A DNA stretch of 28,258 nucleotides, from positions 1 to 28,258 of IMG/VR virus record IMGVR_UViG_3300007735_000571; one strand, given 5' to 3'. The stretch is from a virus. The position numbers were made by a program, and so were the translations under genes. This document shows positions 1,254 to 27,351 of the stretch, in pieces. Below the pieces are notes generated by a model. The model had not been told where the DNA came from, did no database searches, and was given only the letters and a program-made list of their open reading frames with translations. Positions within the stretch are counted from its first letter, which is position 1. Every line of letters starts with the position of its first letter.

Positions 1254-1261
1254 AGTGTAAT
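1254..1261 (+). promoter_or_regulatory. AGTGTAAT motif, putative late promoter core
   Basis: AGTGTAAT in an AT-rich setting, 68 bases upstream of the ATG of the next fibre gene. It is the same motif that occurs in each larger intergenic gap of the window. No conserved -35 box is visible. The long leader contains a small TTGG/CCAA inverted pair and ends in AAAGGAATAAGG just before the start. The promoter role is inferred. Confidence 0.5.
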
Positions 1262-1329
1262 TCTATCTGATTCTTTAGTTCGCCTTAAAAAGCGACAGTT
1301 TGGTGCAAGCCAACAAAAGGAATAAGGAC

Positions 1330-2037
1330 ATGGCAAATATATTTAAGGCTAAAACTCTAGTAGGTAGAAGTGGAATTTTCTCCAATGAAGTAATTGCGCC
1401 AAATCTGGTATATAACACTGGCAATCAAACAATCCTTGGTAATAAAACTTTTGTAGATAACATAGAAGTTCAAGGAACAGGAATCTTTAATTCGGTAGAT
1501 CTTAGTAATATCAGTGAATTTCAATTCTCTGGTGTTACTATGAATTTAGTAGATACTAATGTTTATGTATCTGGTGGTTGGATATATATTTCTGGGAATC
1601 CTGTTTTAACTGGTTCTCAAAGTATAAGTACCATAAATTTAGATAATATAGTTTATACTACAGGAAATCAAAATATTTATGGGGATAAAACTTTTGCTAA
1701 TACTGGCTCTTTTAATACTTTACAAATAACTAACAAAAAACTATCATCTTATTCTTATAATTCAACTAATTTCTTTTTTGGTGATAATTATTTAAATTTT
1801 GCTAATAGTTCAAATAATATAACAGGAATTTTACCTAGTAGCATAATTTCTGGTATTAATTACTATGCTAAAAATCTTAACTCTGGAATATTGCTTATAA
1901 CAGGATCTGTAGAGAGAACTATAGATGGATTTTCTACTCTTAATCTTTATAAAAATGAAAGTGTTCAGTTAGTGGGTGTAAATAACGTTGGTTATACTGG
2001 TTGGGTAACAATTAGTGCTGATGGAGGAATAAGTTAA
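1330..2037 (+). CDS. Short tail fibre / appendage protein with KTF cassettes
   Basis: A 235-residue protein. I choose ATG at 1330 because AAAGGAATAAGG lies directly upstream; the frame can be extended to a TTG at 1300, but that would include the ribosome-binding region as coding. It contains two TGNQ-x-I-x-G-x-KTF cassettes, at about residues 30-41 and 111-122, the first preceded by NLVYN. This cassette also appears in the genes at 1 and 3141. The last 80 residues are beta-rich (NSGILLITGS, RTIDGFSTLNL, GWVTISADGG) in the style of C-terminal caps of phage fibres. The likely role is a virion appendage or receptor-binding component; no catalytic motif is visible. The stop is one base before the next ATG, so the next two genes are probably cotranscribed with it. 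Confidence 0.65.
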   Translation: MANIFKAKTLVGRSGIFSNEVIAPNLVYNTGNQTILGNKTFVDNIEVQGTGIFNSVDLSNISEFQFSGVTMNLVDTNVYVSGGWIYISGNPVLTGSQSISTINLDNIVYTTGNQNIYGDKTFANTGSFNTLQITNKKLSSYSYNSTNFFFGDNYLNFANSSNNITGILPSSIISGINYYAKNLNSGILLITGSVERTIDGFSTLNLYKNESVQLVGVNNVGYTGWVTISADGGIS

Positions 2038-2038
2038 A

Positions 2039-3133
2039 ATGGCTGATATATTAAATAAATTAAATAGCGCAAATTATGTTACTGTTAAAGTAACAGATAA
2101 TGCTATAGTTAATGGTAATAATCTCCTCGCAGCTTACTCTCTTGCAAAAAGCACAAATCCGAATGGAATAGCAAAAAGCGCAACGAATAGACTTAATATT
2201 ATTTTACCAGTTGCAATATATGATCTTGGAACTCAAAGTTTAACTTTAGATGCTGAATATATAGACATAATTGGCTCAACATCTGATACAAACAGCCATT
2301 ATATAAAAACCAATAATTCCACTGGAGTTATAATTCAAACAGCTAATGATGTAGACTTATATAATTTAAAAATACAAAATATTGGGTCTGGTTTTGATTA
2401 TTTTCCAAATAGCGATTTACCTCTTACTTATCTTGAAAATATTTTTTTTGCAGGATCAAAGCCCACTCCTGGTGGGTTAAGTTCTTATCTTATATATAGT
2501 GGCAAGTATGTAAATTGTTCTGGAGGAAATAATTTATTTGGTAGTCTATATGGACATGTTAATTTAAGTGGATCTTTTTTAAACTGTGTTGGCGGAGATT
2601 ACTCTTTCGGTGGAAGGATTTCTTCGTCCATATACAGCAGTGTTCTCTCTGGACAATTTACTAATTGTACGGCTGGAAATTACTCTTTTGGTAATTACTT
2701 TGCTGCTTTATCTTTACCTAATCAAATAACAGGAAATTTTAGAAACTGTAAAGCAGGAGATTATTCATTTTGTGGAGATTTTATCTCTGCGATATTAAAA
2801 TATTGCACTGCTGGAGATTTTTCTTTTCTGGGTGCATTAACTTCAACAGACTTTGAATATTGTAGCGCTGGAAATTACTCTTTTGGAATAGGATATAATA
2901 TAAATTTAAGTAAATTTAAATATTGTAAAGCAGGAGATAATTCATTTGGTGGAAGAATTGGTTTTGCTGTAGGATCAGTATATGGAGATTTTATAAATTG
3001 TATTGGCGAAGGCAATTCTTTCGGTAGTGCAGGCCCTAATGTAACAATAAATGAAAATTCAAAATTTATAAATTGTTTTGGTTGCAATCCTTATTCTAAG
3101 TATGGTACTTATATTAATTGTAGCGTAAATTAA
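2039..3133 (+). CDS. Cys/Gly repeat beta-solenoid appendage protein
   Basis: A 364-residue protein whose N-terminal 140 residues resemble the start of a right-handed beta-helix (alternating hydrophobics such as LNIILPVAIYDL, YIDIIGS, GVIIQT, DVDLYNLKIQNI). From about residue 158 to 350 there is an imperfect repeat of 19-27 residues built on F-x-N/Y-C-x-AG-x-YSFGG. Cysteines at 160, 183, 210, 237, 256, 275, 296, 321 and 346 mark successive turns. The regular Cys would stack along one face of a solenoid. No signal peptide or catalytic acid cluster is evident. It sits between two fibre-type genes (one base after the first, seven before the next), so a spike or receptor-binding role is inferred. 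It could alternatively be a depolymerase, but I see no direct evidence for enzyme activity. Confidence 0.6.
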   Translation: MADILNKLNSANYVTVKVTDNAIVNGNNLLAAYSLAKSTNPNGIAKSATNRLNIILPVAIYDLGTQSLTLDAEYIDIIGSTSDTNSHYIKTNNSTGVIIQTANDVDLYNLKIQNIGSGFDYFPNSDLPLTYLENIFFAGSKPTPGGLSSYLIYSGKYVNCSGGNNLFGSLYGHVNLSGSFLNCVGGDYSFGGRISSSIYSSVLSGQFTNCTAGNYSFGNYFAALSLPNQITGNFRNCKAGDYSFCGDFISAILKYCTAGDFSFLGALTSTDFEYCSAGNYSFGIGYNINLSKFKYCKAGDNSFGGRIGFAVGSVYGDFINCIGEGNSFGSAGPNVTINENSKFINCFGCNPYSKYGTYINCSVN

Positions 3134-3140
3134 AATACAT

Positions 3141-5225: not shown

Positions 5226-5294
5226 TAATACTAGTGGTCTTGGCAACATTTTGAATATAGAATTATTTAATTCAGAAAAAATAGTCTCTACTTT

Positions 5295-5332
5295 ACTTTA
5301 AATTTATAATAATTTAAAGTGTAATTTAAAGT
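5295..5332 (+). promoter_or_regulatory. Triple 10-mer (one inverted, two direct) around a late-promoter motif
   Basis: The 10-mer AATTTAAAGT is present at 5311-5320 and 5323-5332, the second copy ending on the base before the ATG at 5333. Its exact reverse complement, ACTTTAAATT, lies at 5295-5304. The inverted pair could form a 10-bp stem with a six-base loop. The second half of the stem overlaps the AGTGTAAT motif at 5318-5325. This could be an operator, or a structure that limits access to the promoter or the start codon. The sequence fact is certain; the function is inferred. Confidence 0.5.
5318..5325 (+). promoter_or_regulatory. AGTGTAAT motif, putative late promoter core
   Basis: AGTGTAAT ends only seven bases before the ATG of the connector gene at 5333. 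No Shine-Dalgarno sequence separates them, so a transcript starting about 7 bases after the motif would be leaderless or nearly so. It heads the plus-strand run of connector genes. Confidence 0.5.
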
Positions 5333-5842
5333 ATGATTATTAATACTGTTACATCTATTGCACAAGAAATATATGAGGAAATGGGAGAACCATCAGATTT
5401 TAGTATAGCCGCAATTGCAGCATGGGTAAGAAGAAATATTGGTGGACTAGGTAATATGATAAATACTGAATTTATTATTGATAGCTCAACATTAGAAATC
5501 ACGCCAAATCTTACTGATATACAAAAATATATATTCAAAAAAATGTACTCTATATACTTTTTTGATATTAAAATTAAAAGCATAGGAAGTCTTGCTTCTA
5601 GTGATTATACTTCAATTAAAGATGACTTTGGTAGTGTTCAAAAATTAAATACAAACGAAGTTTTAAAAAGTTTTTATCAAATCCGTAAGCAAGAATATGA
5701 AGAATTAAAATCTTTAGTTTATAAATATGAAATAAATGAAATTACCCCGCTTCAAGTCGCTGGAGATGACACAATACCAGGATCTTATAATTCAGAGAGG
5801 GATGCGTTATATAATATTCGCACAATATATAACGCTGGTTAA
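5333..5842 (+). CDS. Putative head-tail connector (adaptor) protein
   Basis: A 169-residue, mostly helical protein. It begins with an alpha-helical stretch (VTSIAQEIYEEMGEPSD) followed by SIAAIAAWVRRNIGGLGNMINTEF, a pattern like that of small connector proteins which form the first ring below the portal. It is the first of four genes in the order and sizes expected between capsid and tail tube in lambda-like phages, so an adaptor role is inferred mainly from position. No ribosome-binding site is visible; the promoter-like motif lies seven bases upstream of ATG. The next gene starts two bases after its stop, implying translational coupling. Alternative: another neck protein. Confidence 0.5.
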   Translation: MIINTVTSIAQEIYEEMGEPSDFSIAAIAAWVRRNIGGLGNMINTEFIIDSSTLEITPNLTDIQKYIFKKMYSIYFFDIKIKSIGSLASSDYTSIKDDFGSVQKLNTNEVLKSFYQIRKQEYEELKSLVYKYEINEITPLQVAGDDTIPGSYNSERDALYNIRTIYNAG

Positions 5843-5844
5843 AA

Positions 5845-6282
5845 ATGAGTTTTATAGATCCCAGCGTAGCAGATAAATTCTCTAAAGAGTTTGATAAGTT
5901 TTTTGAATATTTTTCTAGAGAATTTGTTGTTAATAAAGAACCTTTAAAAGTTCTTGTTACTCCTGCAACAACTCCCTTATTTGGTTATGATACTCAATCA
6001 ACGCCCGAAGCTTACAATTATATACCAGTTCAAGCTACATTTAAAGGCAGAATATCATATAATAAAAAACAAAGCGAAGATTTATTAACAGATTTAAGAC
6101 TAAGTATAGCTGAAGGTATTGTAACTTTAATTGTTAAAGAAAGCGCCAAGAATTATATAGATAACGGCACAACCTTAAATATTCAATTCGATGGCAAGAC
6201 ATTTAATAAAATAACAACTGCTGGAGTAAGAAAATATTTAAATAATACTTATTATCAATACTACTTACAGGAGACAAAATAA
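5845..6282 (+). CDS. Putative head closure / head-tail joining protein
   Basis: A 145-residue protein with an N-terminal amphipathic helix (residues 5-28). The middle is beta-rich and includes YIPVQATFKGRISYNKKQ. The C-terminal segment, around FDGKTFNKITTAGVRKYLNN, resembles the end of small barrel-type joining proteins. In lambda order this position would correspond to FII (head-tail joining) or U (tail terminator). No member-specific motif allows a firm choice. Its TAA shares its last base with the ATG of the next gene, so the two are coupled and probably made in matched amounts. Confidence 0.45.
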   Translation: MSFIDPSVADKFSKEFDKFFEYFSREFVVNKEPLKVLVTPATTPLFGYDTQSTPEAYNYIPVQATFKGRISYNKKQSEDLLTDLRLSIAEGIVTLIVKESAKNYIDNGTTLNIQFDGKTFNKITTAGVRKYLNNTYYQYYLQETK

Positions 6283-6863: not shown

Positions 6864-6864
6864 A

Positions 6865-7728: not shown

Positions 7729-7752
7729 AAAAAAGAAAAATATAAAAAAATC

Positions 7753-7760
7753 AGTGTAAT
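7753..7760 (+). promoter_or_regulatory. AGTGTAAT motif, putative late promoter core upstream of tail tube
   Basis: AGTGTAAT is followed by a 24-base leader with GGAG nine bases before the ATG at 7785. This gives the major tail protein a promoter and a good ribosome-binding site, and with the terminator at 8965-8996 would make a monocistronic unit. Confidence 0.55.
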
Positions 7761-7784
7761 AAAGATAAATGGAGAAACAATAAT

Positions 7785-8939: not shown

Positions 8940-8964
8940 TAAATAATTAAGTTAACTTACAAAG

Positions 8965-8996
8965 TAACCCCCGCATTCTCGCGGGGGTTATTTTTT
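8965..8996. terminator. Strong intrinsic terminator after tail tube gene
   Basis: A perfect 10-bp stem (TAACCCCCGC at 8965-8974 pairing with GCGGGGGTTA at 8981-8990), a six-base loop and then six T. It is the only GC-rich hairpin with a T tract that I found in the window. The arms begin with TAA and end with TTA, but only the plus direction has a T tract of six. Confidence 0.93.
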
Positions 8997-9003
8997 GTGT
9001 AAT
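8997..9003 (+). promoter_or_regulatory. GTGTAAT motif abutting the terminator
   Basis: GTGTAAT begins on the base after the terminator T tract, so the signals that end the tube transcript and begin the chaperone transcript are adjacent. It lies 38 bases before the ATG at 9042, with an AAAGG-type ribosome-binding sequence in the leader. Confidence 0.5.
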
Positions 9004-9041
9004 AATATTTAGGTTAAAGGTTTAAATAAAGGTAAAAGATT

Positions 9042-10296: not shown

Positions 10297-10299
10297 TGA

Positions 10300-11316: not shown

Positions 11317-11345
11317 CCAAAACTATCATATTTAATCATATTTTC

Positions 11346-11352
11346 GTGTAAT
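11346..11352 (+). promoter_or_regulatory. GTGTAAT motif upstream of the tape measure gene
   Basis: GTGTAAT lies 23 bases before the ATG at 11376, with AAAGGAATAAGG in between. That ribosome-binding block followed by CATGGC is nearly identical to the one before the fibre gene at 1330. Confidence 0.5.
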
Positions 11353-11375
11353 TTATTGTAGTAAAGGAATAAGGC

Positions 11376-14300
11376 ATGGCTAGGACTTCAGCTACAATTT
11401 CAGTAGGTGCAGATACAAGGCAACTCGAAAGAGATATTCAAAAAGCCTTGGGGCGTGATTTTAAATTTAAAGGATTAAATGAAAAAGCATTTACTCAACC
11501 ATTAGGTAGAATAACTGGGGCAGCAAATGAGTTTCAAAAATCATTAGATGCTTCTAATGCTCGTGTTATTGCATTCGGAGCTAGCGCAGGACTAATTTAT
11601 GCAGTAGAAAGGGCTTTTACTTCACTTGTTAAAAGTACTATAGATGTTCAGAAATCATTAACTGATATTAATGTTATTTTAAATGTTAGTACAAAAAGTC
11701 TTCAAAATTTTGGGGCTGGTCTATTTAATATAGCAAAAGATACTGCTCAATCTTTCGATACAGTTGCTCAAGCTGCAACAGAATTTTCTCGTCAAGGTTT
11801 AGGCTTAGAGGAGACTCTTAAAAGGACTAGAGACGCCCTTATCTTAACCCGTTTAAGTGGGTTAGATACAGTTAGCGCGGTAGAAGCCTTAACAGCTACC
11901 ATTAATAGCTTTAGTAATGCTGCTTTAGATTCTACGACAATTATTAATAAATTAGCAAATGTTGATGCTGCTTTTGCTGTAAGTTCCGCTGATCTTGCTG
12001 AAGCTATTAAACGAGTTGGAAGTTCCGCACAAGATGTAGGAGTAGACTTTAATGAATTACTTGCTATTGTAACTAGCGTACAACAAACTACTGCAAGAGG
12101 TGGCGCTGTCATCGGTAACTCATTAAAGACGATATTTACAAGAATACAAAGAACAGATACTTTAGATCAACTTGAACAATTAGGTATTCAAGTAAGAACA
12201 TTAGAAGGAAATACTCTTCCAGCAATCCAAATTTTAAGTAATTTAGCTAATACATTTAATCAATTAAGCGATTCGCAACGTGCTCAAGTAGCAGAAACTG
12301 TTGGTGGCGTATTCCAAATCAATATTTTAAGAGCAGCATTGGCAGATTTAGGAAAAGAATACTCAGTATATTCAAGAGCATTACAGACTTCTAATGATGC
12401 AACAGACCAAGCTATAACTAGAAATGAAAAACTAAACCAAACTCTGTCCGCTTTGATTAATCGTACTTTTGTTAATTTAACAGAGCTTGGAGCAGAATTT
12501 GGAAAAATATCTTTACAACCAACTTTTGAAAGCGGATTAAATTTGTTAAATAAAGGTTTAGAATCTTTAACAACAGATTCTGAAGGAATAGGAAGTAGAG
12601 TCGCTAAAGGTATATTTGAAGGTATAGGAACTTTTGTAAGTGGCCCTGGGGTAATACTTTTGACTGCAGTATTTGGTAAACTATTTTTAAATTTAGCTAA
12701 ATTTGCTGGGGAATCTTTAAAAACTTTATTAAATATAAATACTCAAGCAGAGCAAAGAGCTCAAATACAAACAAAAATAAATCAAGTATTAGCTCAAGAA
12801 CCAGCATTAGTTGCAGCTGTGTATAATAAACAAATTAGTGTTTTAGATGTTGAAAATAAAATATTAAATATTATTCGTCAACAAACGCTAGAGAGAGAAA
12901 GAGCCGCATCTATTTCAACTACAATTGCTGGCGGATTATTAGCGAGAGGTGTTACTACAAAAGGTGGAGCTTTAAAAGCAAAAAGTTCTGGATTTATACC
13001 TAATTTTGCAATGTCCGAAATTTTTGGCGCATTAGCTGGAGGCTACAGACCAGGTAATGTAAGAAGAATGAATATTCCAGGAGAAGGATCGATTACTTAC
13101 AATAGCGCAGAAAAAGTAAAAAAATTTCCAGGATTAACACAGCCCGCTATTATGCCTCCTGGTCAAAGTATAGCTGGAAAAAATTATAAAAGTCAATTTA
13201 ATTCTATATATGGATTTGACCCTTACGCTTCAAAAGGATTTATTCCTAATTTTTCTGTAGCTTCATTAGTTAGTCAAACATTAAAAGGAAATATTAGTCA
13301 AGAAAAAGCTATAAGTCAATTAAGGACAAAAAGAGAACAAGAGCAATACAAGCAAGGTTTAGCGAATGCTAAACTTGAACCTCAATTTTATAATGCATCT
13401 AAACTTGGAATTGTAGGAGTATTAGGAGCAAGCGGCCCAACTACTGCTCAAACAACATTTTCAAAGATTGGATTTCCAGGTGATGAAAGAAAAATAACTT
13501 TCCAAGGAATACAAGCAAGAACAATTAAAGATTTAGAACGTAATGCTTTACAAAATGAAAATGAATTTTCTAGAACAATAAATACTTTATTTGTTGATCC
13601 ATTAACTCAACTCGCAACAAACATATTTGGACCTGTAAATCCTGATCCTAATTTTTTAAGAATACTACAGTCTAATGCGCGTGGAGGTATAAATCTATTT
13701 CCTAAAGGAACAGAGGGATCTATATTTGAGGCAGCAGTAAATCTCGGAACAAAAACTGGCACAGGAGCTTTAGAGAAAGCTTTCAATCAAGACACAGCTC
13801 AAAAACCTTTCGATTTTGAAGAGGCTTCTCCACCAACATCAAAATTTAATGAAATATTTAAATTTAATCCATATGTAATCAAAGCTGATGCAAAAAGAGT
13901 TATAGATGACGTTGCTCGTAGAGATATTATTCAAAAAGCATATCAAGTTGGCTCTGGTGTTCCTGGTCTTCCAGCAGGAAAAAGAATAAAAAATGCAGCA
14001 AAAGGATTTATACCTAACTTTACTGCGTTAAATGATGCAATAGATCGAGAACTTGGTGCTGGAGTCTCTCCTTCTAGAGTAAGAATAGGGACAGATAAAA
14101 GATTAACTTCTGCCTATAATCCACTTGGTCTTGGTGTTTATAATACTCAAGATGAACCATTAGGTTTAGGTCAGGGAGTATCGCGAATGGGGCTAAAAGC
14201 AAAGACGAGTGGAGCATTTAATGGATTAATACCAAATTTTGTTAACTTACCTACGACATTCATGGGGGATCCAAAGGTTTTGCAGTATCAAATAACCGCT

Positions 14301-17300
14301 CTAACAGAAGCGCAGAATAAATCAACGAAGCAACTTGTCAGAGATTTTAAAGATTTAAGCAGAGAGACAAGAAATGCTTCAAGAGGATTTCAAAATTTTA
14401 GTGGCGCTGCTCTTGCCCTTAGTGTCGGTGTACCAATAATTTTGCAAACTTTATCTCAATTTAGTTCTAGCCAAGATATTAAAACTCAAGCTGCAATTAA
14501 TGGAATAAGTACAGCATTAAGTTTTATCGGTACTGGAGCATTTGTAGGTGCAGGGATGGGGAGAGCGGGTGGTTTATATGGAGCGGGTGCGGGAGCACTT
14601 ATCGGTGGTGGAATAGGATTTTATCAATTTATACAATCTTTAAAAACAGAAGATCTGCAAAAACTTCAGAAAAATTTGCAATTCCTTCAAGATGAATTTC
14701 AATCTTCACAATCTGCTTTGCAAAAAGTTATTCCTCTTATTGAAGAATATAAAAAAGTTCAAGCTTCTGCCGCAGAAGAGCAAGTAAAAGCTTTTAATTT
14801 AGAAAAAATTGTAAATGAAATTTCTACTGGTCTTAGTCCTCTTGGAGAAGAAACGGTAAATAAAGTATTAGAATCAATTAAAAATGCAGATTATGATACT
14901 ATTGGTTTAATTATTAATAAAAAATTAGCTGAAAGTAGCGCTCAACTTTCAAATGAAGGAGTTAAAGTCTTATTAAAAGAATTTAGCAAAGAAGGACAAA
15001 TACAAGATCCTACAAAAGCTAAAGTTTTAGGAAAAAGTTTATTGTCTCTTCAAACATCTACTGGAGAATCTGTAATAAGAAAATTAGCTGCAACAGAAGA
15101 AGGTAGAAAAAGAATAGATATTGTTAGTAAGAATTTAGAAAAATTATTAACAGAACGAATACAATTACAAAAAGAATTGACAGAAAATCCTCCATTAGAA
15201 ATGAAAGCTGGTATAGTTGAATCTAGCAAAATTTTAGGAAAAGCAATAATGAAAAATCCTGGGGCTTTGTTTGGGGATTGGCAGGAACTTGAAAAAGATG
15301 CAGAAAAAATTGCTGCAGAAATAAATTTAAATTTACAAAATATATTAAATACAGTTGAACCTCTTTATAAAGACAGCGAAGAAACAAGAACAAAATTTGC
15401 TGAATGGAAAATTGCTTCAGGAAGTACATCATTAAATCAAGAATCTGCAACAGCGCTTATTGAACAAATTGTAAAAGATCTGAAATCTCAAGGAATTAGT
15501 ACTGAAAAAATAGATAATATTCTTAAAACTAGCGCAATTGACAGTATTGAAGCTTATGTTCAAGCTTTTAAAACAAACACATTAACATTAAGAAAAGCAG
15601 ATGAATTTATTAAAAATACTTTATTTAAAAGATTACAAGATCCTCTTGATGTCTTAGGAAAAGAACAAGCTGCATTAATACAAAATATTGGAGAAGATAT
15701 ATTAACACCATCTAGAAGAAATCGAGTCTATGATGAAGTAGATAAAGCGACAGAAAAACTTAGATCTCAATTAAATGATGAAATAATCCGAAGAGAAAGA
15801 TTAGACGCCCAGCTTGCAAATAAAGAAATAACAGAAGAGCAATATCAGAAAGATATAGAAAAAACAATTATTACCGAAGATCAATATAGGAAAAGACTAC
15901 AAGCTCTTCGCGAAAAAATATTATTAGATCAAAGAAAAGTGGGAGGTATATTTGCCGAAGACTTTAGAGGAGGAAGACAAGACACAAGAGAGGCTAGAAT
16001 TCTTGGTCAAGAAACTCAATTAAAAGATTTTGGCGCAGCATTTTTTGATGAATTTGATTATAGAACAGAAGACTCATTTCGTGAGGCACAATTAGGAGCC
16101 AAAGAAACAGCAAGAACAATTAAGAGCGAATTTAATAATGCTTTCTTTGAATTTGCTCAGGGTTCAGTAACTGCTGGCCAAGCATTTGAAAAGTTTGCTC
16201 TTAATATATCTAATAAAATACAACAGCTTGCATTAGAGTTTAGTTCAAATCTTTTATTTGGTAAACTTTTTGGAAGCACAAGTAATATATTCGGACTTGG
16301 TGGGGGCGGTGGGGGCGGTGGTGGCGGTGGAGGTTTTGGAAATTTATTTGGATTTAAAAAAGGTGGACTAATAAAAGGCTATTCTTCTGGTGGAAATGTA
16401 ACTGGCGGATCTGGAACAAAAGATGATGTTCCTGCTATGCTAAGTGCTGGAGAATATGTTATACGAAAAAATGCTGTTAAGAAATATGGTCCAGAATATT
16501 TACAAATGTTAAACGAAGGCAAAGTTTCCAAAAAGTTTCTTGGTGGAGAAGCGCGACAAGCTATATTTAATGCTGGCGTCCAAGCAATTATGACAAGTAT
16601 TGTAGGACATATTGCTTCCCAAAAGTCTTCGTCTAATAGTGCCTCAAGTGTTAATACTTTTTCAGGCATAGCTCTTAATAATAGAGAGAGAGATTCTAAA
16701 TATTTTAAATATGGTGGAGGGGTTCAAAAATTTGCTAGAGGTGGAGAAGCTTCTTTTATTAATGATAATTATTTTACATCTGATTTTGAAGGAATTACCG
16801 TACCAGAAACTGGTCAAACTTTATATAGACCAAAAGATGGTAAGACTATTGCACCAAATTTAAATTTAAGAGCTATATTAGATTCTTCTAATCCTCAAAA
16901 TGAAGCCAGAAGAAGAGCTGAAGATTTTTATAATAGTAGAATTGATGAAATTGATAAATATCTTCAATATGTAGATGATGTACGTAAATCAAATGAAGAA
17001 GCATATAAAGAGAATCTAAGATTAAATCAAGAAATTAGGGATCAATATAATAAACAAAAAAGCTCAGCTTCTAAAGGAGCTTGGTTATCTTTCCTTTTGG
17101 GGGCTGGAGCTGCAGGATCAACATTTCTTGCTTCTGGTGGACAAGTTAAGAAATTTGCAAAAGGAGGATCAAATCAAGATAATATTCCAGCGCTCTTAAT
17201 GGATGGAGAGTTTGTTATGCGCAGAGAAGCTGTAAATTTATATGGCAAAAAATTCTTTGATGATTTAAATACTGGGAGAGTCAAGAGGTTTGCGAATGGT

Positions 17301-17558
17301 GGATCTACCTCAAATGCAGGAGCTGAGGGGATTATATCGGACAGTAATTACAATTCTGTAAATAATGTAAATATTACAGTCAATATGTCAAATAATCAAA
17401 ATACATCTACTTCTGAAACAGGTCGTACTAGTAATGAAGAACAAGATCAGAAATTAAAGTTATTAAGTTCACAAATCAAAGACCAGGTCATCAGAACTCT
17501 TGTAGCAGAACAAAGGCCTGGCGGTATTTTAAGTAGCACTTATTATAGCAAGCGTTAA
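11376..17558 (+). CDS. Tail tape measure protein
   Basis: A 2060-residue protein spanning the tail lumen and setting tail length. At roughly 0.15 nm per residue this implies a tail of about 300 nm. The N-terminal 330 residues match the TP901/PhageMin_Tail type core (VIAFGASAGLIYAVERAF, KSLTDINVILNVS, EALTATINSFSNAALDSTTI, then ARGGAVIGNSLKTIFTRIQ). Four (K)GF/LIPNF motifs occur at 539, 621, 877 and 950. A hydrophobic glycine-rich segment (about 1007-1085, GGLYGAGAGALIGGGIGFY) could insert into the host membrane. A long helical region (1090-1600) follows, then 12 Gly at 1642-1653. Two copies of a C-terminal module with D-x-x/I-PA-L/M-L-x-x-GE-Y/F-V lie near 1663-1722 and 1919-1976. The gene converges on the minus-strand cassette with one base between stop codons. 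Confidence 0.95.
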   Translation: MARTSATISVGADTRQLERDIQKALGRDFKFKGLNEKAFTQPLGRITGAANEFQKSLDASNARVIAFGASAGLIYAVERAFTSLVKSTIDVQKSLTDINVILNVSTKSLQNFGAGLFNIAKDTAQSFDTVAQAATEFSRQGLGLEETLKRTRDALILTRLSGLDTVSAVEALTATINSFSNAALDSTTIINKLANVDAAFAVSSADLAEAIKRVGSSAQDVGVDFNELLAIVTSVQQTTARGGAVIGNSLKTIFTRIQRTDTLDQLEQLGIQVRTLEGNTLPAIQILSNLANTFNQLSDSQRAQVAETVGGVFQINILRAALADLGKEYSVYSRALQTSNDATDQAITRNEKLNQTLSALINRTFVNLTELGAEFGKISLQPTFESGLNLLNKGLESLTTDSEGIGSRVAKGIFEGIGTFVSGPGVILLTAVFGKLFLNLAKFAGESLKTLLNINTQAEQRAQIQTKINQVLAQEPALVAAVYNKQISVLDVENKILNIIRQQTLERERAASISTTIAGGLLARGVTTKGGALKAKSSGFIPNFAMSEIFGALAGGYRPGNVRRMNIPGEGSITYNSAEKVKKFPGLTQPAIMPPGQSIAGKNYKSQFNSIYGFDPYASKGFIPNFSVASLVSQTLKGNISQEKAISQLRTKREQEQYKQGLANAKLEPQFYNASKLGIVGVLGASGPTTAQTTFSKIGFPGDERKITFQGIQARTIKDLERNALQNENEFSRTINTLFVDPLTQLATNIFGPVNPDPNFLRILQSNARGGINLFPKGTEGSIFEAAVNLGTKTGTGALEKAFNQDTAQKPFDFEEASPPTSKFNEIFKFNPYVIKADAKRVIDDVARRDIIQKAYQVGSGVPGLPAGKRIKNAAKGFIPNFTALNDAIDRELGAGVSPSRVRIGTDKRLTSAYNPLGLGVYNTQDEPLGLGQGVSRMGLKAKTSGAFNGLIPNFVNLPTTFMGDPKVLQYQITALTEAQNKSTKQLVRDFKDLSRETRNASRGFQNFSGAALALSVGVPIILQTLSQFSSSQDIKTQAAINGISTALSFIGTGAFVGAGMGRAGGLYGAGAGALIGGGIGFYQFIQSLKTEDLQKLQKNLQFLQDEFQSSQSALQKVIPLIEEYKKVQASAAEEQVKAFNLEKIVNEISTGLSPLGEETVNKVLESIKNADYDTIGLIINKKLAESSAQLSNEGVKVLLKEFSKEGQIQDPTKAKVLGKSLLSLQTSTGESVIRKLAATEEGRKRIDIVSKNLEKLLTERIQLQKELTENPPLEMKAGIVESSKILGKAIMKNPGALFGDWQELEKDAEKIAAEINLNLQNILNTVEPLYKDSEETRTKFAEWKIASGSTSLNQESATALIEQIVKDLKSQGISTEKIDNILKTSAIDSIEAYVQAFKTNTLTLRKADEFIKNTLFKRLQDPLDVLGKEQAALIQNIGEDILTPSRRNRVYDEVDKATEKLRSQLNDEIIRRERLDAQLANKEITEEQYQKDIEKTIITEDQYRKRLQALREKILLDQRKVGGIFAEDFRGGRQDTREARILGQETQLKDFGAAFFDEFDYRTEDSFREAQLGAKETARTIKSEFNNAFFEFAQGSVTAGQAFEKFALNISNKIQQLALEFSSNLLFGKLFGSTSNIFGLGGGGGGGGGGGGFGNLFGFKKGGLIKGYSSGGNVTGGSGTKDDVPAMLSAGEYVIRKNAVKKYGPEYLQMLNEGKVSKKFLGGEARQAIFNAGVQAIMTSIVGHIASQKSSSNSASSVNTFSGIALNNRERDSKYFKYGGGVQKFARGGEASFINDNYFTSDFEGITVPETGQTLYRPKDGKTIAPNLNLRAILDSSNPQNEARRRAEDFYNSRIDEIDKYLQYVDDVRKSNEEAYKENLRLNQEIRDQYNKQKSSASKGAWLSFLLGAGAAGSTFLASGGQVKKFAKGGSNQDNIPALLMDGEFVMRREAVNLYGKKFFDDLNTGRVKRFANGGSTSNAGAEGIISDSNYNSVNNVNITVNMSNNQNTSTSETGRTSNEEQDQKLKLLSSQIKDQVIRTLVAEQRPGGILSSTYYSKR
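16299..16334 (+). repeat. GC-rich poly-glycine microsatellite
   Basis: Twelve consecutive glycine codons (residues 1642-1653 of the tape measure), including two tandem copies of GGGGGCGGT. The GC content contrasts sharply with the surrounding AT-rich sequence. It lies between the helical rod and the C-terminal GE-Y/F-V modules and is probably a flexible hinge. The repeat could slip during replication, by multiples of three without loss of frame. Confidence 0.85.
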
Positions 17559-17559
17559 T

Positions 17560-18984: not shown

Positions 18985-18985
18985 T

Positions 18986-22228: not shown

Positions 22229-22232
22229 AAAA

Positions 22233-23003
22233 TTAGAATGGACTACTTTGTAACGGAGTCTGAGTTATCAAATAGCCTTTTGAATTAAATAAATATTGTT
22301 CGAGTCCTTGATAATCTAGTTGTAATGTTGCATCACTATAACTTGATAAAAATGTTCTATAAAGAATATTATAACTGCTAAAAACATTATTTCCGCCTAT
22401 AGTTAATTGTCCATATCCTATTGGCACGGGACCTCCTTCTCCCATTGTATTAACTGGACCATTAAACAAATATGAGGTTGGTCCACCAGCAACACCACCT
22501 TCTCCTTGTATTGGATTTACTTGTTGAGCAGTAAATGGCACAGATGGAGGTGGTTTAGACAATAATTCACTTGTGCCAGCAGCAATTAAACCAACGCTAG
22601 CCACACCTAAAGCAATAGAAAAAGGTATAGCTGGTGGAACAAATACACCTAATAAAACCGCTCCTGCTAATCCTGCAGTTCCAGCTATGACTTTTCCCCA
22701 TGCGCCTGAACCAATAATTTTAGGAATAATATCAATTGTGTGTATTTTATTGTCTAGTTCGCAGAATAGTTCTGAATTTCTAATATCTTCGAGCGAGTCA
22801 AATTTTTTGCTTTCTGTTATTAAGCTGTAGCTATTTACAAATATTTCATATTCATATTCATTTAAATATGTTACTAACCATTTTCTTAATTTTTTTGTAT
22901 TAGCTTCAATTGCCCTAAAAGCTTCAGCTACACTTTTTACGTCAAGATCCCATTCTTGACCAAGATCTCCACCCAATTTTCCATGTAAATTTACTTTAAT
23001 CAT
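22233..23003 (-). CDS. I: Tail assembly protein I homologue
   Basis: A 256-residue protein. The N-terminal region, GKLGGDLGQEWDLDVKSVAEAFRAIEAN, matches the beta-grasp-like start of lambda I, which is needed for tail-tip assembly. A hydrophobic glycine-rich region (about 98-147, AGTAGLAGAVLLGVFVPPAIP) follows, then the diagnostic GGPVPIGYGQLTIGGN at 190-205. It overlaps the K homologue by one base (TAATG), with AGGAG six bases upstream of its ATG. As in lambda, it lies between K and J, but on the opposite strand relative to the tape measure. Confidence 0.9.
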   Translation of the reverse strand: MIKVNLHGKLGGDLGQEWDLDVKSVAEAFRAIEANTKKLRKWLVTYLNEYEYEIFVNSYSLITESKKFDSLEDIRNSELFCELDNKIHTIDIIPKIIGSGAWGKVIAGTAGLAGAVLLGVFVPPAIPFSIALGVASVGLIAAGTSELLSKPPPSVPFTAQQVNPIQGEGGVAGGPTSYLFNGPVNTMGEGGPVPIGYGQLTIGGNNVFSSYNILYRTFLSSYSDATLQLDYQGLEQYLFNSKGYLITQTPLQSSPF

Positions 23004-23722
23004 TATTTTCTCCTAAAAAGTGCATATAATTTTTTTTTATAAAAGTCTGAATAATTTTCTATTTTAGAAAATCCGTTCATAGGCTGATGTAAAATTGTAT
23101 CATTACCTAAATATAAAGCAAAATGTTTGGGATTTTTATCTAAAAAGAAATCCATAAAAAGTATATCATGCATATGATATGAATTATCTTTTATTAATTC
23201 AAAATTATTCTGTTCAAAATATTTAAATATTTCACTTTTTATATCCATTTCTATAAGGGATTTACGGTAAAAATTACGATCATAATTAAAATTAATATTT
23301 AATTCATTTCTATAATAATCTTCAATAAGTTTAAAGCAGTCATATTTGCCGTGTTCGTAATATCTCCCGATGTATTCATTTTGAATATTTATTGGTTTAT
23401 AAATTTTAATTAAATCATAATTTATATTATACATAATAATAGGTATTAGTAAATTTTCTGAACAGGTTTTGTCTTTTTCGGTTATTTCTTGATTGTCATT
23501 TGTATGGCTATGATATATATAATATATTTTTTTATATTTTTGTTTTACTTTTAAAAAATCTAAACTTGATATCTCAAAATTTTCTTTTGGATTTTGTGAT
23601 ATATTCTTAATAGGAATACATCTAAACTTTTCATCTTCTTGAATAATAAAACCACAGCATTCATTCGGATTATTTAATAAAGCTTCTTTTTTTATGAAAT
23701 TTTTTATTTTTTTATCTATCAT
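23003..23722 (-). CDS. K: Tail tip protein K homologue: JAMM peptidase plus NlpC/P60
   Basis: A 239-residue two-domain protein, like lambda K. The N-terminal JAMM/MPN domain has E21, H71-S-H73, then T81 and D84 at the canonical spacing (HxH-x7-S/T-x2-D), so the metal ligands E, H, H, D are intact with Ser replaced by Thr. The C-terminal NlpC/P60 domain has C129 (YDCFKL), H200 (KHFALYLG) and H212. It probably cleaves peptidoglycan cross-links during DNA entry and acts in tip assembly. I start it at 23722, one base after the L stop; the longer frame to 23776 would overlap the end of L by 53 bases. It shares TAATG with the I homologue. Confidence 0.88.
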   Translation of the reverse strand: MIDKKIKNFIKKEALLNNPNECCGFIIQEDEKFRCIPIKNISQNPKENFEISSLDFLKVKQKYKKIYYIYHSHTNDNQEITEKDKTCSENLLIPIIMYNINYDLIKIYKPINIQNEYIGRYYEHGKYDCFKLIEDYYRNELNINFNYDRNFYRKSLIEMDIKSEIFKYFEQNNFELIKDNSYHMHDILFMDFFLDKNPKHFALYLGNDTILHQPMNGFSKIENYSDFYKKKLYALFRRK

Positions 23723-23723
23723 A

Positions 23724-25106
23724 TTACATTTGTGGTTGATTTGTTCCTGGAAAGCCGCCAAATGGCAAAAATCCATTTAGATAATTTCCATTTGCATCTT
23801 TAGGTATTCCATGTGAACTTGCTGAAGAAGGGTTTTCTGCTCCAGGTCTTCTTGGGAAATTAATTAAGTTGCCATTACTCCCAGTAACGAATAGATCTCT
23901 CTCTCCGCTAGAATATAACCAAGTCATTCTATTTCTTGTTTGTATATATGTTTCTCCGTTTCTATCTGTTGGCCATATTATAGGTCTAAAAGCAGGATTT
24001 TTCAACCATCTTAATCTGCAAGCTGATATACTTTTTGAGCAACTATCTGATGTCCAGTAATTTTTATTTGGTGGAGCATTAAAAAAATCGGATAGATGAT
24101 TATTGGTGCAAACATAATAAAATTTAATGCCTTTTGTAGATAAAAATACAAAGTCTCCAGAAATGTAACTATAATTATTTTGCCATGGACCAAGATTTCC
24201 AGCTCCGCCAGTTATTCTTAATATTGCGTTATTTGCATTTATATGCACTCCACTATCAAATACTCCTCCTTGACCTATAAAAAGCTGATCATTTTCTGTT
24301 GCAACTGGCGGTGCGGTTTGCAGTCCTCTTATTTGATATGGAGGATTTGCAATATTCGCATAAACGCCACTATGAAGATATGTTAATCTATTATTATATT
24401 CATATAAACATCCTTCTCCTCGATATTGAAATGGACATCTTGTAGATAAAAGTGTTCTTCCTGGTAATGTTAAGTTTTCTATATCTAATATTGAAGCTAA
24501 ATCGTATTGAATAATATCTTTTGTTTCTAAAGATTTTCTATCTATATAATATATATCTTTTGGTAATTCCATTTCATATAATCCAGTTTGAGGATTAAAT
24601 ATGTTTATATTGCCAGAAAAATTTGATCCATCTAAGTATTTTAAGAATGTTTTTATTCTTGTAAATTTTGCCCCAACTATATCTCCTAAAGATTGAATTT
24701 GCATTCGTAAATATCTATAGAAAGAATTAGCTGAGTAATCTGGAGATAAATTAGATATTGATATTCTTGGAGTAGGTAAAGTTCCAGCGGAAGTGTATTC
24801 AAATCCTTCTGCGGCTATTGGAAAGGGATAATAAAAGTTATTTTGCCATTTAATTGCACCATATTTTTGTGGATCACTATTTGTTGAAATTTTAAATAAA
24901 TTATAATCATTATATACTCTAAAAACACCATTATTAATTGGTTGATTTTCCACTGGATAATTTACTGTTGTTGGTGCAACTTCTGATATATCTAATTCAT
25001 AAAGAAAAATTTGTGCTGATGGAGATAAAGAAGAGATTTCTGTATTTATGGATCTAGCGCCACTAATTAAATAATTATAAACTTGAGATTGTGGTACAAT
25101 TGGCAT
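23724..25106 (-). CDS. L: Minor tail protein L homologue with probable Fe-S site and an inserted module
   Basis: A 460-residue protein. The C-terminal half has Cys pairs C224/C233 (RCPFQYRGEGC) and C356/C363 (SCSKSISACRLRW). Lambda L binds an iron-sulphur cluster through four Cys; as I recall their spacing is 9, 23 and 7, and here it is 9, 123 and 7. The roughly 100 extra residues between the pairs contain a module with W308-QNNYSYISGDFV, KFYYVCTNN and W351, which resembles a type 5/12 chitin-binding fold. The N-terminal part (LYELDISEV) and the glycine-rich end GFLPFGGFPG are also L-like. It lies between M and K, five bases after the M stop. Confidence 0.88.
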   Translation of the reverse strand: MPIVPQSQVYNYLISGARSINTEISSLSPSAQIFLYELDISEVAPTTVNYPVENQPINNGVFRVYNDYNLFKISTNSDPQKYGAIKWQNNFYYPFPIAAEGFEYTSAGTLPTPRISISNLSPDYSANSFYRYLRMQIQSLGDIVGAKFTRIKTFLKYLDGSNFSGNINIFNPQTGLYEMELPKDIYYIDRKSLETKDIIQYDLASILDIENLTLPGRTLLSTRCPFQYRGEGCLYEYNNRLTYLHSGVYANIANPPYQIRGLQTAPPVATENDQLFIGQGGVFDSGVHINANNAILRITGGAGNLGPWQNNYSYISGDFVFLSTKGIKFYYVCTNNHLSDFFNAPPNKNYWTSDSCSKSISACRLRWLKNPAFRPIIWPTDRNGETYIQTRNRMTWLYSSGERDLFVTGSNGNLINFPRRPGAENPSSASSHGIPKDANGNYLNGFLPFGGFPGTNQPQM

Positions 25107-25111
25107 AATTA

Positions 25112-25660
25112 TTAAACAGGTGTTTCTGTAAGATCAACTTCTATATTGTAATTATTATAAGAAACATAGCTTGCGTTCCAGCTAAACGAAGTAAATTTTG
25201 TAGTTAAATCATTAGAAGATTTAGAGTATATCGTAGGTATGTTATAAACAAAACTTTGTTGCCCATTTCTCTCTTTTAAGAAATGAAGTATAGACACTGT
25301 TTCTAATTCGCTTCGGTTTTGAAAACTTAAATTTAATTCAATTAGATCATTATTTATGCCATCATTTAACCTTTGTTGATATCCATTACCAAATTGATTT
25401 ATTTTTAATTTTGGTTTATGTTGAATTGATCCATTATAAGATGGTTTCCACCAAAAATTTGGGTATAAAACATTATTTAAAGAAATGTATCCATCCCAAG
25501 TTGAACCTAAATATGAAGGACTAGTACTTGTTGGGTTTTTATTTTGGTTGCTATTAATTACAGAGTAATAGTACCTTCCATCGCTACCTATTACAATATT
25601 GAACTTATTGTATGTAGTTGCCGCGCTCCAGTTAGGAACTGTATCATAAATACTAGCCAT
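25112..25660 (-). CDS. M: Minor tail protein M homologue with N-terminal carbohydrate-binding-like module
   Basis: A 182-residue protein, first gene of the inverted cassette. Residues 70-182 match lambda M (KPKLKINQFGNGYQQRLNDGIN at 82-103, then HFLKERNG and F-x-YN). Residues 11-56 (WSAATTYNKFNIVIGSDGRYYY, then W55) form an additional module with the W-Y-x-GD-V-x-G-x-Y-Y-x-W pattern of small type 5/12 carbohydrate-binding modules. A strong AGGAGG lies ten bases before the ATG. The minus-strand AGTGTAAA motif is at 25681-25688. M is the distal tail component joining tube to tip. Confidence 0.85.
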   Translation of the reverse strand: MASIYDTVPNWSAATTYNKFNIVIGSDGRYYYSVINSNQNKNPTSTSPSYLGSTWDGYISLNNVLYPNFWWKPSYNGSIQHKPKLKINQFGNGYQQRLNDGINNDLIELNLSFQNRSELETVSILHFLKERNGQQSFVYNIPTIYSKSSNDLTTKFTSFSWNASYVSYNNYNIEVDLTETPV

Positions 25661-25680
25661 ATACCTTTTACCTCCTATAT

Positions 25681-25688
25681 TTTACACT
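25681..25688 (-). promoter_or_regulatory. AGTGTAAA motif for the tail-tip operon, divergent
   Basis: The reverse complement reads AGTGTAAA, a one-base variant of the plus-strand motif. It lies 20 bases before the M start with AGGAGG in between. It is the only copy found on the minus strand and would serve the whole M-L-K-I-J-474 operon. Confidence 0.5.
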
Positions 25689-25701
25689 TAAAAGAAGTGT
25701 A
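25683..25701. promoter_or_regulatory. Inverted repeat of two promoter motifs in the divergent gap
   Basis: TACACTT at 25683-25689 and AAGTGTA at 25695-25701 are exact reverse complements separated by five bases (AAAAG). They are the cores of the two divergent motifs. The closeness suggests that two polymerases could not bind together, or that one regulator binds the palindrome. Confidence 0.6.
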
Positions 25702-25703
25702 AT
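25696..25703 (+). promoter_or_regulatory. AGTGTAAT motif upstream of the tube-paralogue gene
   Basis: AGTGTAAT ends eight bases before the ATG at 25712, with no Shine-Dalgarno sequence between, as at 5318 and 27344. A leaderless transcript is possible. Confidence 0.5.
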
Positions 25704-25711
25704 TATATTTA

Positions 25712-26539
25712 ATGTTTAACGTATATTCTATAGAAAATCAAAATTTTTATCTAAATAATTCTATTATTTCTGGAGTGCAAGGGGTAAATATATCTTATAA
25801 TAATAATGTTGATTCGTCCTTAGCAGTAAATGATTCTAATTCTAATTATTTTGTTTCTAACCCAATAGTTGCAAATCTAGACATAGATTACTTATTAAGC
25901 CAAAAAGATAGATTTATAAATTTTATAACTGGAGATCTTTTTGAAGGTAAGGTAGAATATGGGAATAAATTTTTAACTTTTTCTAGTGGTTATCTGACAA
26001 ATTATTCATTAAATTATAGACTTGGTGAATATCCTATAGTAAATACAAAAAATATAATATTTGGAGAATTAGGCAATACTTCTGGAGTTTTTTCATATAT
26101 ACCAAACAGATTAAATAATTTTACTTTGGGTGATAGTTGTTATGCAGAAATAAGTTTAAATGAAGTAAATTCTAATCGATTAGAGTCTTTTTCTATAGAA
26201 ATTGAAGTACCCCGTGAACCAGTTTACACAATAGGAAATTATTTACCTGATAATGTAATTATCAAATATCCAATATATATTAATATGGATCTTAATTTTT
26301 CTATGAGTGAATATAATCAAGAGAAGGTCTCAAATATATTTACTGGAATCAAATCATATCCAGCTAATATAAAAATTAAAGAATATAATTCTAATTCAAA
26401 TCTTTTGGTATTAAACTTGTCTGGGCTTGTTAATGATCAAAGTTCTATAAACTATACTTTAAATAATGACGCAAAATTAAATTTAAATCTAAAAACTCAA
26501 ATATTAAATAACAATATAAATTTAGATTTTTTAACATAA
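25712..26539 (+). CDS. Divergent paralogue of the tail tube protein
   Basis: A 275-residue beta-rich protein collinear with the tube protein at 7785. Blocks: residues 22-29 with tube 52-59 (I/V-Q-x-A/V-N-x-S-F/Y); 49-62 with 81-93 (NP-x-V then LD and Y-x-L); 93-108 with 161-176 (G-F/Y-I/L-T-x-YS ... G-x-F/Y-P); 158-197 with 259-298, ungapped (S, I, R, P, G, P, M retained). It lacks much of the tube 110-160 and 190-240 regions. The likely job is a minor tube ring, perhaps at the tip or neck, since it sits next to the tip operon. It has no Shine-Dalgarno sequence; the promoter-like motif ends eight bases before the ATG. Confidence 0.7.
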   Translation: MFNVYSIENQNFYLNNSIISGVQGVNISYNNNVDSSLAVNDSNSNYFVSNPIVANLDIDYLLSQKDRFINFITGDLFEGKVEYGNKFLTFSSGYLTNYSLNYRLGEYPIVNTKNIIFGELGNTSGVFSYIPNRLNNFTLGDSCYAEISLNEVNSNRLESFSIEIEVPREPVYTIGNYLPDNVIIKYPIYINMDLNFSMSEYNQEKVSNIFTGIKSYPANIKIKEYNSNSNLLVLNLSGLVNDQSSINYTLNNDAKLNLNLKTQILNNNINLDFLT

Positions 26540-26558
26540 TTGCAATATAATAGTTTAT

Positions 26559-27029
26559 ATGACAATAGATAAAATACTAAATTCTCAAGCTTTTTTCACA
26601 ATTTTCATGAAAAATGATGTTTTTTTTAATTCTTTAAAAGAAAAATTTCCAGATATTTTAGCAGATCTTGTAAGTTCTAGAGATAATCCAAATTGCTCTT
26701 GTAGAAACAGAGTTAGGTCATATTTAAGTCCAAAAACTGTAACTGAAGTTGTATATTTTGAAGATCTTTTAAATAATCAAGAAATTAAAAAACTAATAGA
26801 AGAAAATAAAAAAGATATTGAACAAAGTCAATCTCAAATCCATTATCCAATGATGCCTATTGTTAATCAACAAAATATGTTCTTAACTACTGGCGGCAGA
26901 GTATTCAAAATTGGCAAAGATGAAGAGGATTGGAAGAATCTTTGTAAAAAAATTCAAAATGATAAACTTTTATTTAGATCTTTTTCAATCTTAGAAAAAG
27001 AAGATCATTTATTAATTTATTTTGTTTAA
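26559..27029 (+). CDS. Small protein of unknown function
   Basis: A 156-residue soluble protein. The N-terminal half is helical (FFTIFMKNDVFFNSLKEKFPDIL) and is followed by NPNCSCRNRVRSYL (Cys at 46 and 48). The middle is charged with EENKKDIEQSQSQ, and the C-terminal part is beta-type (GGRVFKIGKDEEDW, HLLIYFV). No family recognised. It starts 19 bases after the tube paralogue and its stop abuts the next ATG with no gap. No Shine-Dalgarno sequence is visible, so translation is probably coupled. Confidence 0.5.
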   Translation: MTIDKILNSQAFFTIFMKNDVFFNSLKEKFPDILADLVSSRDNPNCSCRNRVRSYLSPKTVTEVVYFEDLLNNQEIKKLIEENKKDIEQSQSQIHYPMMPIVNQQNMFLTTGGRVFKIGKDEEDWKNLCKKIQNDKLLFRSFSILEKEDHLLIYFV

Positions 27030-27323
27030 ATGTTTTATCAATTTTTAATCTATCTTTTTGTTTGTTTGGGCGTCTCTTATGCTTGGAGTGATACAGAAGT
27101 AGCAAGACCATTTAGAAATTTTGTTGCAAAAATACCTTATATACATAAACCTTTATTATGTCATGAATGCTCTAGTTTTTGGATATCTTTAGGTGTTAGT
27201 TTTTTTATTAATCCATTTTTTGGATTGACATATCCTATTCTTAGTAATATTTTAAGTGCTTTTTGTGGATTTTTTATTAATTTGTATTTTGTAAGAAATA
27301 GTTTAATACGATACAGAAATTAA
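27030..27323 (+). CDS. Small membrane protein with CxxC, DUF1360-like
   Basis: A 97-residue protein with two or three hydrophobic segments (residues 3-20, 50-68 and 69-88). Between them is LLCHECSSFWISL, with C44 and C47. The C-x-x-C-x-x-F-W pattern at the start of a membrane helix resembles the DUF1360 family found in phages and sporulating bacteria, whose function is unknown. It would lie in the host inner membrane. The ATG immediately follows the previous stop. It is unclear why a membrane protein lies in the late virion region; a lysis-associated or superinfection-related role is possible but not shown. Confidence 0.6.
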   Translation: MFYQFLIYLFVCLGVSYAWSDTEVARPFRNFVAKIPYIHKPLLCHECSSFWISLGVSFFINPFFGLTYPILSNILSAFCGFFINLYFVRNSLIRYRN

Positions 27324-27343
27324 ATAATTTTATATAATTCTTA

Positions 27344-27351
27344 AGTGTAAT
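27344..27351 (+). promoter_or_regulatory. AGTGTAAT motif upstream of the Cys-rich gene
   Basis: AGTGTAAT ends eight bases before the ATG at 27360. No Shine-Dalgarno sequence lies between them. The arrangement is the same as at 25696. Confidence 0.5.

Follow-up and report, generated by a model that had tools for sequence, protein, structure and literature searches.

Here we analyse the virus record IMGVR_UViG_3300007735_000571, a stretch of 28,258 bases with ~30% G+C that is called the window throughout, and a short DNA element, GTGTAAT, which lies ahead of its genes and which an earlier reading of the letters (the original prediction) had proposed to mark a late-promoter regulon. The window holds a siphovirus tail module, with the tape measure gene at 11376-17558 and a leftward tail-tip operon at 25660-17560, in which PHROG matches reveal relatives of the lambda tail proteins M, L, K, I and J. 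The window overlaps with two contigs that come from a single dataset, G001 with 99.7% identity across 15,876 bases and G002 with 99.97% identity across 12,509 bases, and the three are treated as one virus, V1, with ~101 kb covered. Genes 1-66 of V1, which are mainly rightward but include the leftward tail-tip operon, contain the terminase, head and tail genes (the late arm), and genes 67-108, which are leftward, contain those of DNA polymerase, helicase, primase, a UvsX-like recombinase, exonuclease and ribonucleotide reductase (the early or replication arm). Related viral loci numbering 37, 64 and 31 were obtained with three proteins of the window as queries, and AGTGTAAT is present in 34 of the 35 related records tested. 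The genes in 19 rebuilt related contigs were called with our own simple codon-score caller, which prefers ATG and Shine-Dalgarno starts. The contigs are metagenomic fragments, with G012, G016 and G025 taken minus their last 595, 2325 and 3358 bases, respectively, and the dereplication is script-dependent, giving 116, 112 or 125 independent sites depending on the test.

All eight sites that had been named before, seven on the plus strand and AGTGTAAA at 25688-25681 on the minus strand, are present in the window (Table 1), with the leading A being absent in two of the plus-strand sites (TGTGTAAT and CGTGTAAT). It is also true, as had been proposed, that every gap of at least 35 bases has GTGTAAT aimed at its gene (7 of 7 gaps), and the element is missing from the sole other gap of at least 15 bases (26540-26558, 19 bases). 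The remark that no copy had been noticed inside genes has to be corrected, as there is one genic copy at 27965-27971. The count over the whole window is unremarkable alone (8 copies versus a shuffle mean of 3.9, with 6 of 100 shuffles reaching 8). The scan of genic versus intergenic copies with a shuffled control, which had been put forward as a check, comes out in favour of the idea: 7 of the 8 copies lie within the 484 gap bases of the 28,258 (binomial p ~3e-12), and when the joined gaps were resampled 2000 times with a Markov model, the plus-strand copies numbered 0.065 on average and 2 at most.

Table 1. Putative late promoter elements and other mapped features of the window; distances run from the element to the start codon.
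Feature	Position	Strand	Remarks
Putative late promoter element AGTGTAAT	1254..1261	+	68 bases to ATG 1330; 38 to alternative TTG 1300
Putative late promoter element AGTGTAAT	5318..5325	+	7 bases to ATG 5333 (V1_48); predicted leaderless
Putative late promoter element AGTGTAAT	7753..7760	+	24 bases to ATG 7785; GGAG in leader
Intrinsic-terminator-like GC hairpin and T run	8966..8996	+	Found by eye, no terminator scan
Putative late promoter element TGTGTAAT	8996..9003	+	38 bases to ATG 9042
Putative late promoter element CGTGTAAT	11345..11352	+	23 bases to ATG 11376 (tape measure gene); AAAGG in leader
Putative late promoter element AGTGTAAA	25681..25688	-	Leftward tail-tip operon; 20 bases to ATG 25660; AGGAGG in leader
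Putative late promoter element AGTGTAAT	25696..25703	+	8 bases to ATG 25712 (V1_64); predicted leaderless
Putative late promoter element AGTGTAAT	27344..27351	+	8 bases to ATG 27360; predicted leaderless
Single genic GTGTAAT	27965..27971	+	Within the Cys-rich gene starting at 27360; excluded from promoters

The spacing between the element and the start codon is kept gene by gene. For the orthologues of V1_48 (window 5333) the distance is 7 bases in 13 of 19, 9 in three and 55 in two, with one being motif-less; for V1_43 it is 7 or 8 in 12 of 12, for V1_64 (window 25712) it is 8 in 14 of 16, and the four orthologues of the gene at ATG 27360 all have it at 7-8. Longer distances are similarly maintained: the motif is found in 18 of 22 orthologues of the gene at ATG 7785 (in 15 at a distance of 24), in 19 of 19 of that at ATG 9042 (at 26-40 bases), and in 18 of 18 of the tape measure gene, where the distance is 23 in 15, 23-24 in 17 and 30 in one. 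For V1_63, with which the tail-tip operon begins at 25660, GTGTAA[ATC] is present in 15 of 15 orthologues, 14 of them at a distance of 20. The elements ahead of V1_63 and V1_64 form a back-to-back divergent pair in the 51-base gap 25661-25711, with the distances to both genes being the same in 14 of 21 contigs, and two polymerases could hardly be present on both elements at once.

Across the 19 related contigs, GTGTAAT ranks first among all 7-mers upstream of 776 genes, with 220 copies versus 5.8 expected by the Markov model on dinucleotides and 0.8 expected by the genic rate. Among 298 copies in 20 sequences, a count in which the window and the two near-identical contigs that flank it are taken separately, 230 are intergenic and directed toward a gene, 20 are intergenic otherwise and 48 are genic. 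V1 has 21 upstream copies, and eight sequences of the clade that encodes the sigma factor called sigma-A below have 8-22. By contrast, the control stretches of other phages, which are partial genomes of 40-50 kb, have one (phiEco32 and HTVC008M) or none (949, K and T4); the top five words of the same control script include TAATGTA in phiEco32 (5 versus 0.31 expected) and TATAAAT in T4 (10 versus 1.4 expected).

The orientation was studied with GTGTAA in gaps of 15-400 bases of 21 contigs, sorted by gap class. In the 773 same-direction gaps there are 267 forward copies versus 9 reverse ones, in the 75 divergent gaps the two orientations occur 40 and 39 times, and in the 43 convergent gaps merely 1 and 2 times. 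A promoter would show such a pattern, whereas a terminator, a directionless operator or a replication signal would not. It could still be argued that the element is an operator, over the −10 region of the late promoters, for a DNA-binding regulator that is not a sigma factor, because palindrome-like inverted pairs TTACAC-N(7-12)-GTGTAA occur in 20 gaps. However, 19 of these 20 gaps lie between divergent genes, so that the pairs are best read as two promoters; moreover, single oriented copies prevail in the same-direction gaps, and an operator requires neither an orientation nor a fixed distance of 7-8 bases to the start codon. The operator is thus very improbable.

In 116 dereplicated sites, A/T-rich positions precede the GTGTAAT core, and no −35 signal is seen, with all positions upstream of −16 at 0.10 bits or less. 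In a word search with 125 dereplicated sites, each of the 15 top-ranking upstream words belongs to the TACAC type and lies at about −12 to −22, with no −35 element among these 15, weaker words not having been looked at. The TACAC-type words arise from the opposite-strand element of the divergent pairs, the back-to-back spacing of which leaves scant space in which each promoter could have a −35 box of its own. The earlier claim that there is no shared −35 box is thus borne out by both sets of sites.

The element is largely confined to the late arm. With the genes of 21 contigs assigned to the arms by their best V1 match, GTGTAAT is found in 177 of 337 late-arm gaps versus 6 of 177 in the early arm (odds ratio 31.5, Fisher p 6e-34, in a test run on related contigs whose kinship is not removed by dereplication). 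In the gaps ahead of genes without a V1 match, GTGTAAT occurs in 75 of 510 and GTGTAA in 117 of 510, and among 65 dereplicated early-arm upstreams no strong second motif was found. This distribution bears on the possibility that the promoter is read by a host sigma, primary or alternative, with a phage sigma being unneeded. As the original prediction remarked, TGTAAT is one base from TATAAT, the sigma-70 −10 box, which is a weak lead in this direction. In addition, TTGAC boxes are present upstream of some genes in related phages, implying that the host holoenzyme probably acts on these phages too. However, the replication-arm gaps rarely hold the element, no −35 box is detectable with it, and the five control stretches, though from phages of different hosts, are without enrichment. 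We therefore consider the host-sigma explanation improbable.

The proposal of a late-promoter regulon is thus supported by the orientation by gap class, by the late-arm restriction, by the lack of an upstream element and by the presence of phage sigma genes in the same genomes, as described below. Judged from the sequences, GTGTAAT is almost certainly a late promoter element.

A feature that was absent from the original prediction is the spacing ahead of the start codon. The distribution of distances has its peak at 7-8 bases, where 48 of the 112 dereplicated sites lie versus 4.7 expected by random gap placement, and 62 of the 112 sites are at 5-10 bases versus 14.1 expected. If transcription starts 6-8 bases past the element, as is reported for phiEco32 (PMC8948821, PMC4281155), transcripts from the elements at 7-8 bases would begin on or beside the ATG. 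When the last 20 bases before the start codon are examined, Shine-Dalgarno-like words are found at 5 of the 70 sites with a distance of at most 12 (at one of the 70 within the very narrow interval that separates the element from the start codon) and at 13 of the 24 sites with a distance of 13-30. The corresponding figures are 293 of 941 for genes that lack a gap and 161 of 766 for genes that have a gap but are motif-less. The contrast of the short-distance class is therefore clear versus the 13-30 class and modest versus the rest. Note that the bias of our caller, with its preference for ATG and Shine-Dalgarno starts, runs against the leaderless class. From the spacing, it is predicted that the late mRNAs with this short distance are very probably leaderless.

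The constant distance of 7-8 bases to the ATG at many genes lacking a Shine-Dalgarno sequence would also be expected if the element were a translation-initiation signal in the mRNA that substitutes for it. This is the least credible of the explanations considered here, since the same element stands at conserved distances of 20-40 bases at other genes, and since the genes without a gap, which seldom have room for the element, show a Shine-Dalgarno-like word in only the minority given above. As a separate observation, in L306 and related loci some upstreams have TTGAC boxes ~17 bases ahead of a −10-like hexamer near the ATG; judging from such upstreams, host-type promoters may be leaderless too.

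The search for a phage sigma or late factor, which had been suggested as a check, revealed two sigma families in these genomes, with Sigma70_r2 (PF04542) matching 17 of 35 records at E <=1, nine of them above the cut-off. The first, sigma-A, is a protein of 227 aa encoded at G001:11843-12526, ~22 kb left of the window, where it sits in the terminase operon with two genes intervening. Ahead of this operon no GTGTAA[AT] is present in V1, and the motif precedes the first gene of the operon in 2 of 9 orthologues, at distances of 18 and 49 bases. Sigma70_r2 is above the cut-off within the sigma-A frame in 6 records, and with the V1 protein alone it stays below (21.7 of 24 bits). The match to the NCBIfam model sigma70-ECF (extracytoplasmic function, ECF) has E 5e-7, also below its cut-off, PHROG offers at best a weak match (phrog_1740, E 7e-4), and Pfam Sigma70_r4 gives no sequence match to sigma-A. 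In the predicted structure (mean pLDDT 71, linker <50), residues 3-84 superpose on RpoE with Z 8.6 and 2.6 A over 78, pointing to an ECF-like region 2, and residues 150-221 superpose on the −35 binding domain of SigD with Z 9.0 and 1.8 A over 62, pointing to a region 4 fold; both matches come from a second structural aligner, and Z of 8-9 is modest for helical domains. With Foldseek the model has no PDB match at E <=0.001. The list of structural hits includes an engineered sigma-E region 2 with GTAAAA, according to the structure title, which gives some precedent for a GT-first element among ECF factors. Four cysteines in the linker are invariant in all 194 full-length members (159 distinct rows; 4 of 198 loci were left out as not full length), and this linker is probably metal-binding. 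By tblastn, sigma-A has no match at E 0.01 in 50,697 phage records, and its relatives are encoded in at least 582 IMG/VR stretches.

The second family, sigma-B, has open frames of 196-213 aa with regions 2 and 4 and is encoded in the early arm of V1; a copy of 195 aa lies at G002:431-1018 (L136). It matches Sigma70_r2 and, mainly below the cut-off, Sigma70_r4, and no target promoters for it were found. Sigma-A is present in 10 and sigma-B in 11 of 19 contigs, with both being present in V1, G021, G028 and G037, and because the contigs are fragmentary, the absence of either proves little. A multisubunit polymerase was not found: the beta-prime domain RNA_pol_Rpb1_2 (PF00623) is detected in 0 of 22 records, which are fragments, versus 14 of 14 control genomes, and this search did not extend to single-subunit polymerases.

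The link of sigma-A to the element comes from loci that were chosen by sigma-A alone, in which GTGTAA precedes a gene at 70 of 77 loci, and at 159 of 194 in an overlapping set. Moreover, the element appears to vary with the protein. In clade 2 (35 loci), where sigma-A is ~43% identical to that of V1, the motif leans to GTGTATA, and, whereas in clade 8 the motif ends in AT or AA at 93 sites and in TA or TT at 10, the corresponding numbers in clade 2 are 3 and 17 (Fisher p 2e-11, with the counts taken from the top tails and clade 2 possibly having one further AA). The same late promoter could instead be read by sigma-B made from the early arm. That arm is where the late switch would be expected to be made, and sigma-B has the Sigma70_r2 and Sigma70_r4 matches given above. 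On the other hand, region 4 of sigma-B would predict a −35 element, and the motif is seen around loci picked by sigma-A alone down to ~43-50% identity. We regard sigma-B as an unlikely reader, and sigma-A as probably the one that reads GTGTAAT. Our reading is then that GTGTAAT is the single −10-type late promoter element of a large uncultured siphophage clade, most likely read by the phage ECF-like sigma-A, to which we give a probability of about 0.65.

Several points weigh against this reading. Among the sigma-A loci, 35 of 194 are without an upstream GTGTAA, and in clade 7 it is found in only 9 of 21 loci. Another dereplication of nearly the same clade 2 loci gives 10 GTGTATA and 6 GTGTAAT, a milder shift, and both the co-occurrence of sigma-A with the motif and the shift between clades could be explained by shared descent alone. 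Sigma-B occurs in the same clade and may be the reader instead. ECF factors usually have a conserved −35 element in their target promoters, and the region 4 predicted in the sigma-A model is one that usually reads such an element; if sigma-A is the reader, its promoters are at odds with this, as no −35 is detected in them. The restriction to the late arm is weaker for the 6-mer GTGTAA than for the 7-mer, the former being found in 21 of 177 early-arm versus 212 of 337 late-arm gaps, and the early-arm genes V1_79, V1_100 and V1_102 carry it. V1_102, the small subunit of ribonucleotide reductase (G002:5108-6172), has CGTGTAAA 9 bases ahead of its start, and GTGTAA[ATC] is at the same distance in 8 of 10 orthologues. 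In G038 and G004 another 7-mer ranks above GTGTAAT. Finally, Shine-Dalgarno-like words are uncommon generally in these genomes, so that their absence gives only modest support to leaderless mRNAs.

Some other observations are noted here. The T run of the hairpin in Table 1 stops exactly where the promoter element at 8996-9003 begins, and G+C-rich words, e.g., CGGGGG, are enriched upstream of genes across the clade. From window position 1 to ~500, the translation of the first gene holds near-identical repeats (LTTNLFTTGSNLAYNLYVTGSGLQTQVNT) and is fibre-like. The tail genes 23003-23776 and 23724-25106 overlap by 53 bases when the longest open reading frames are taken; our caller puts the start of the first one at 23722. 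At L136:6216-7013, adjoining the ribonucleotide reductase genes, there is a weak match to a homing endonuclease (phrog_314, E 4e-5). In a scan of genome contigs for host labels, three contigs of metagenome-assembled genomes gave Flavobacteriales, Halobacteriovorax and an uncultured bacterium; these labels conflict with each other and may be binning noise, and thus no host is claimed.

It is instructive to compare this regulon with known systems. The late promoters of T4 have a short element with the core TATAAATA and no −35 box. The likeness to T4-type late promoters that had been suggested holds in part: in both cases late genes have a short element with no −35, but the core sequences differ, no homologue of gp55 or gp45 was detected with single-sequence queries, and the promoter of phiEco32 gp36 is closer. 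No similarity of sigma-A to T4 gp55 was detected. The gp45 clamp gave no phmmer match with one T4 sequence, by which distant clamps would be missed, and the gp44 query gave no believable homologue. With gp55 as the phmmer query, two weak matches (E 7e-4 and 4e-3) were obtained in stop-to-stop frames of 110-114 aa, which are not sigma-like in length and were rejected. Besides gp55, gp33 and gp45 are involved in T4 late transcription (PMC2988020).

The middle and late promoters of phiEco32, read by the ECF-type sigma gp36, are described as a single element, tAATGTAtA, with no −35 and with the start 6-8 bp downstream (PMC8948821, PMC4281155), and gp36 is said there to have no region 4 homology (PMC8948821), to which the lack of a −35 is attributed. 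As in the clade studied here, there would be one element without −35 and a phage sigma acting on the host polymerase, and structural and other genes are transcribed in opposite directions; the two elements share a TGTA core, with GTGTATA of clade 2 being nearer still. By analogy, an ATG at 7-8 bases is compatible with the phiEco32 start site. By contrast, sigma-A has a predicted region 4 and a four-cysteine linker, with the −35 still missing; phiEco32 has six promoters versus the upstream copies counted above for V1, and the leaderless spacing is a feature of the clade. By hhalign, sigma-A and gp36 have no detectable homology (E 0.27, 11 columns), and a very distant homology is possible. The late promoters of phage 7-11, read by gp47, are given as GTAAtg-(16)-aCTA (PMC8948821), which is again a late regulon with a phage sigma but, as described, with a bipartite element in place of the single one here. 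Short late motifs near the start site are also reported for the non-virion RNA polymerases of phiKZ (TATG, with G being the start; PMC4666361) and AR9 (AACA-6N-TA/G; PMC5312081). These phages need phage multisubunit polymerases, of which the PF00623 search gave no sign in the clade records. In the literature, the motif letters appear in no phage-promoter title among the matches listed, which is weak evidence of absence, as subscription journals were mostly uncovered.

In our judgement, there are few cultured phages whose late sigma factors have been described in detail. A late regulon under a phage sigma is of a known kind, and what is new is the sigma family and the predicted leaderless design. 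In the proposed mechanism, sigma-A would turn the host RNA polymerase toward the structural genes, transcription would start some 7-9 bases past GTGTAAT, and at about half of the independent sites (those at 5-10 bases) this start would be at or very near the start codon and give leaderless mRNAs, with other genes keeping a longer leader, often with a Shine-Dalgarno sequence. The full form of this proposal, in which a new ECF-like phage sigma family with an invariant four-cysteine linker reads the single GTGTAAT and makes transcription begin at the start codon itself, with leaderless mRNAs thereby serving as templates for much of the late proteome, is put forward tentatively, at slightly less than even odds.

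The significance of these results lies in the fact that sequence alone suffices to follow a whole late regulon, including how it is oriented and spaced and how it has evolved, in phages that are common in environmental viromes, judging from the IMG/VR stretches with a sigma-A relative. The four-cysteine sigma is a concrete protein to test, and the conserved spacing of 7-8 bases provides a testable, large-scale case of leaderless translation of phage structural genes. If the proposal is true, the phage would switch not only the polymerase but also the mode of ribosome entry, with the choice between leaderless mRNAs and Shine-Dalgarno leaders being fixed gene by gene.

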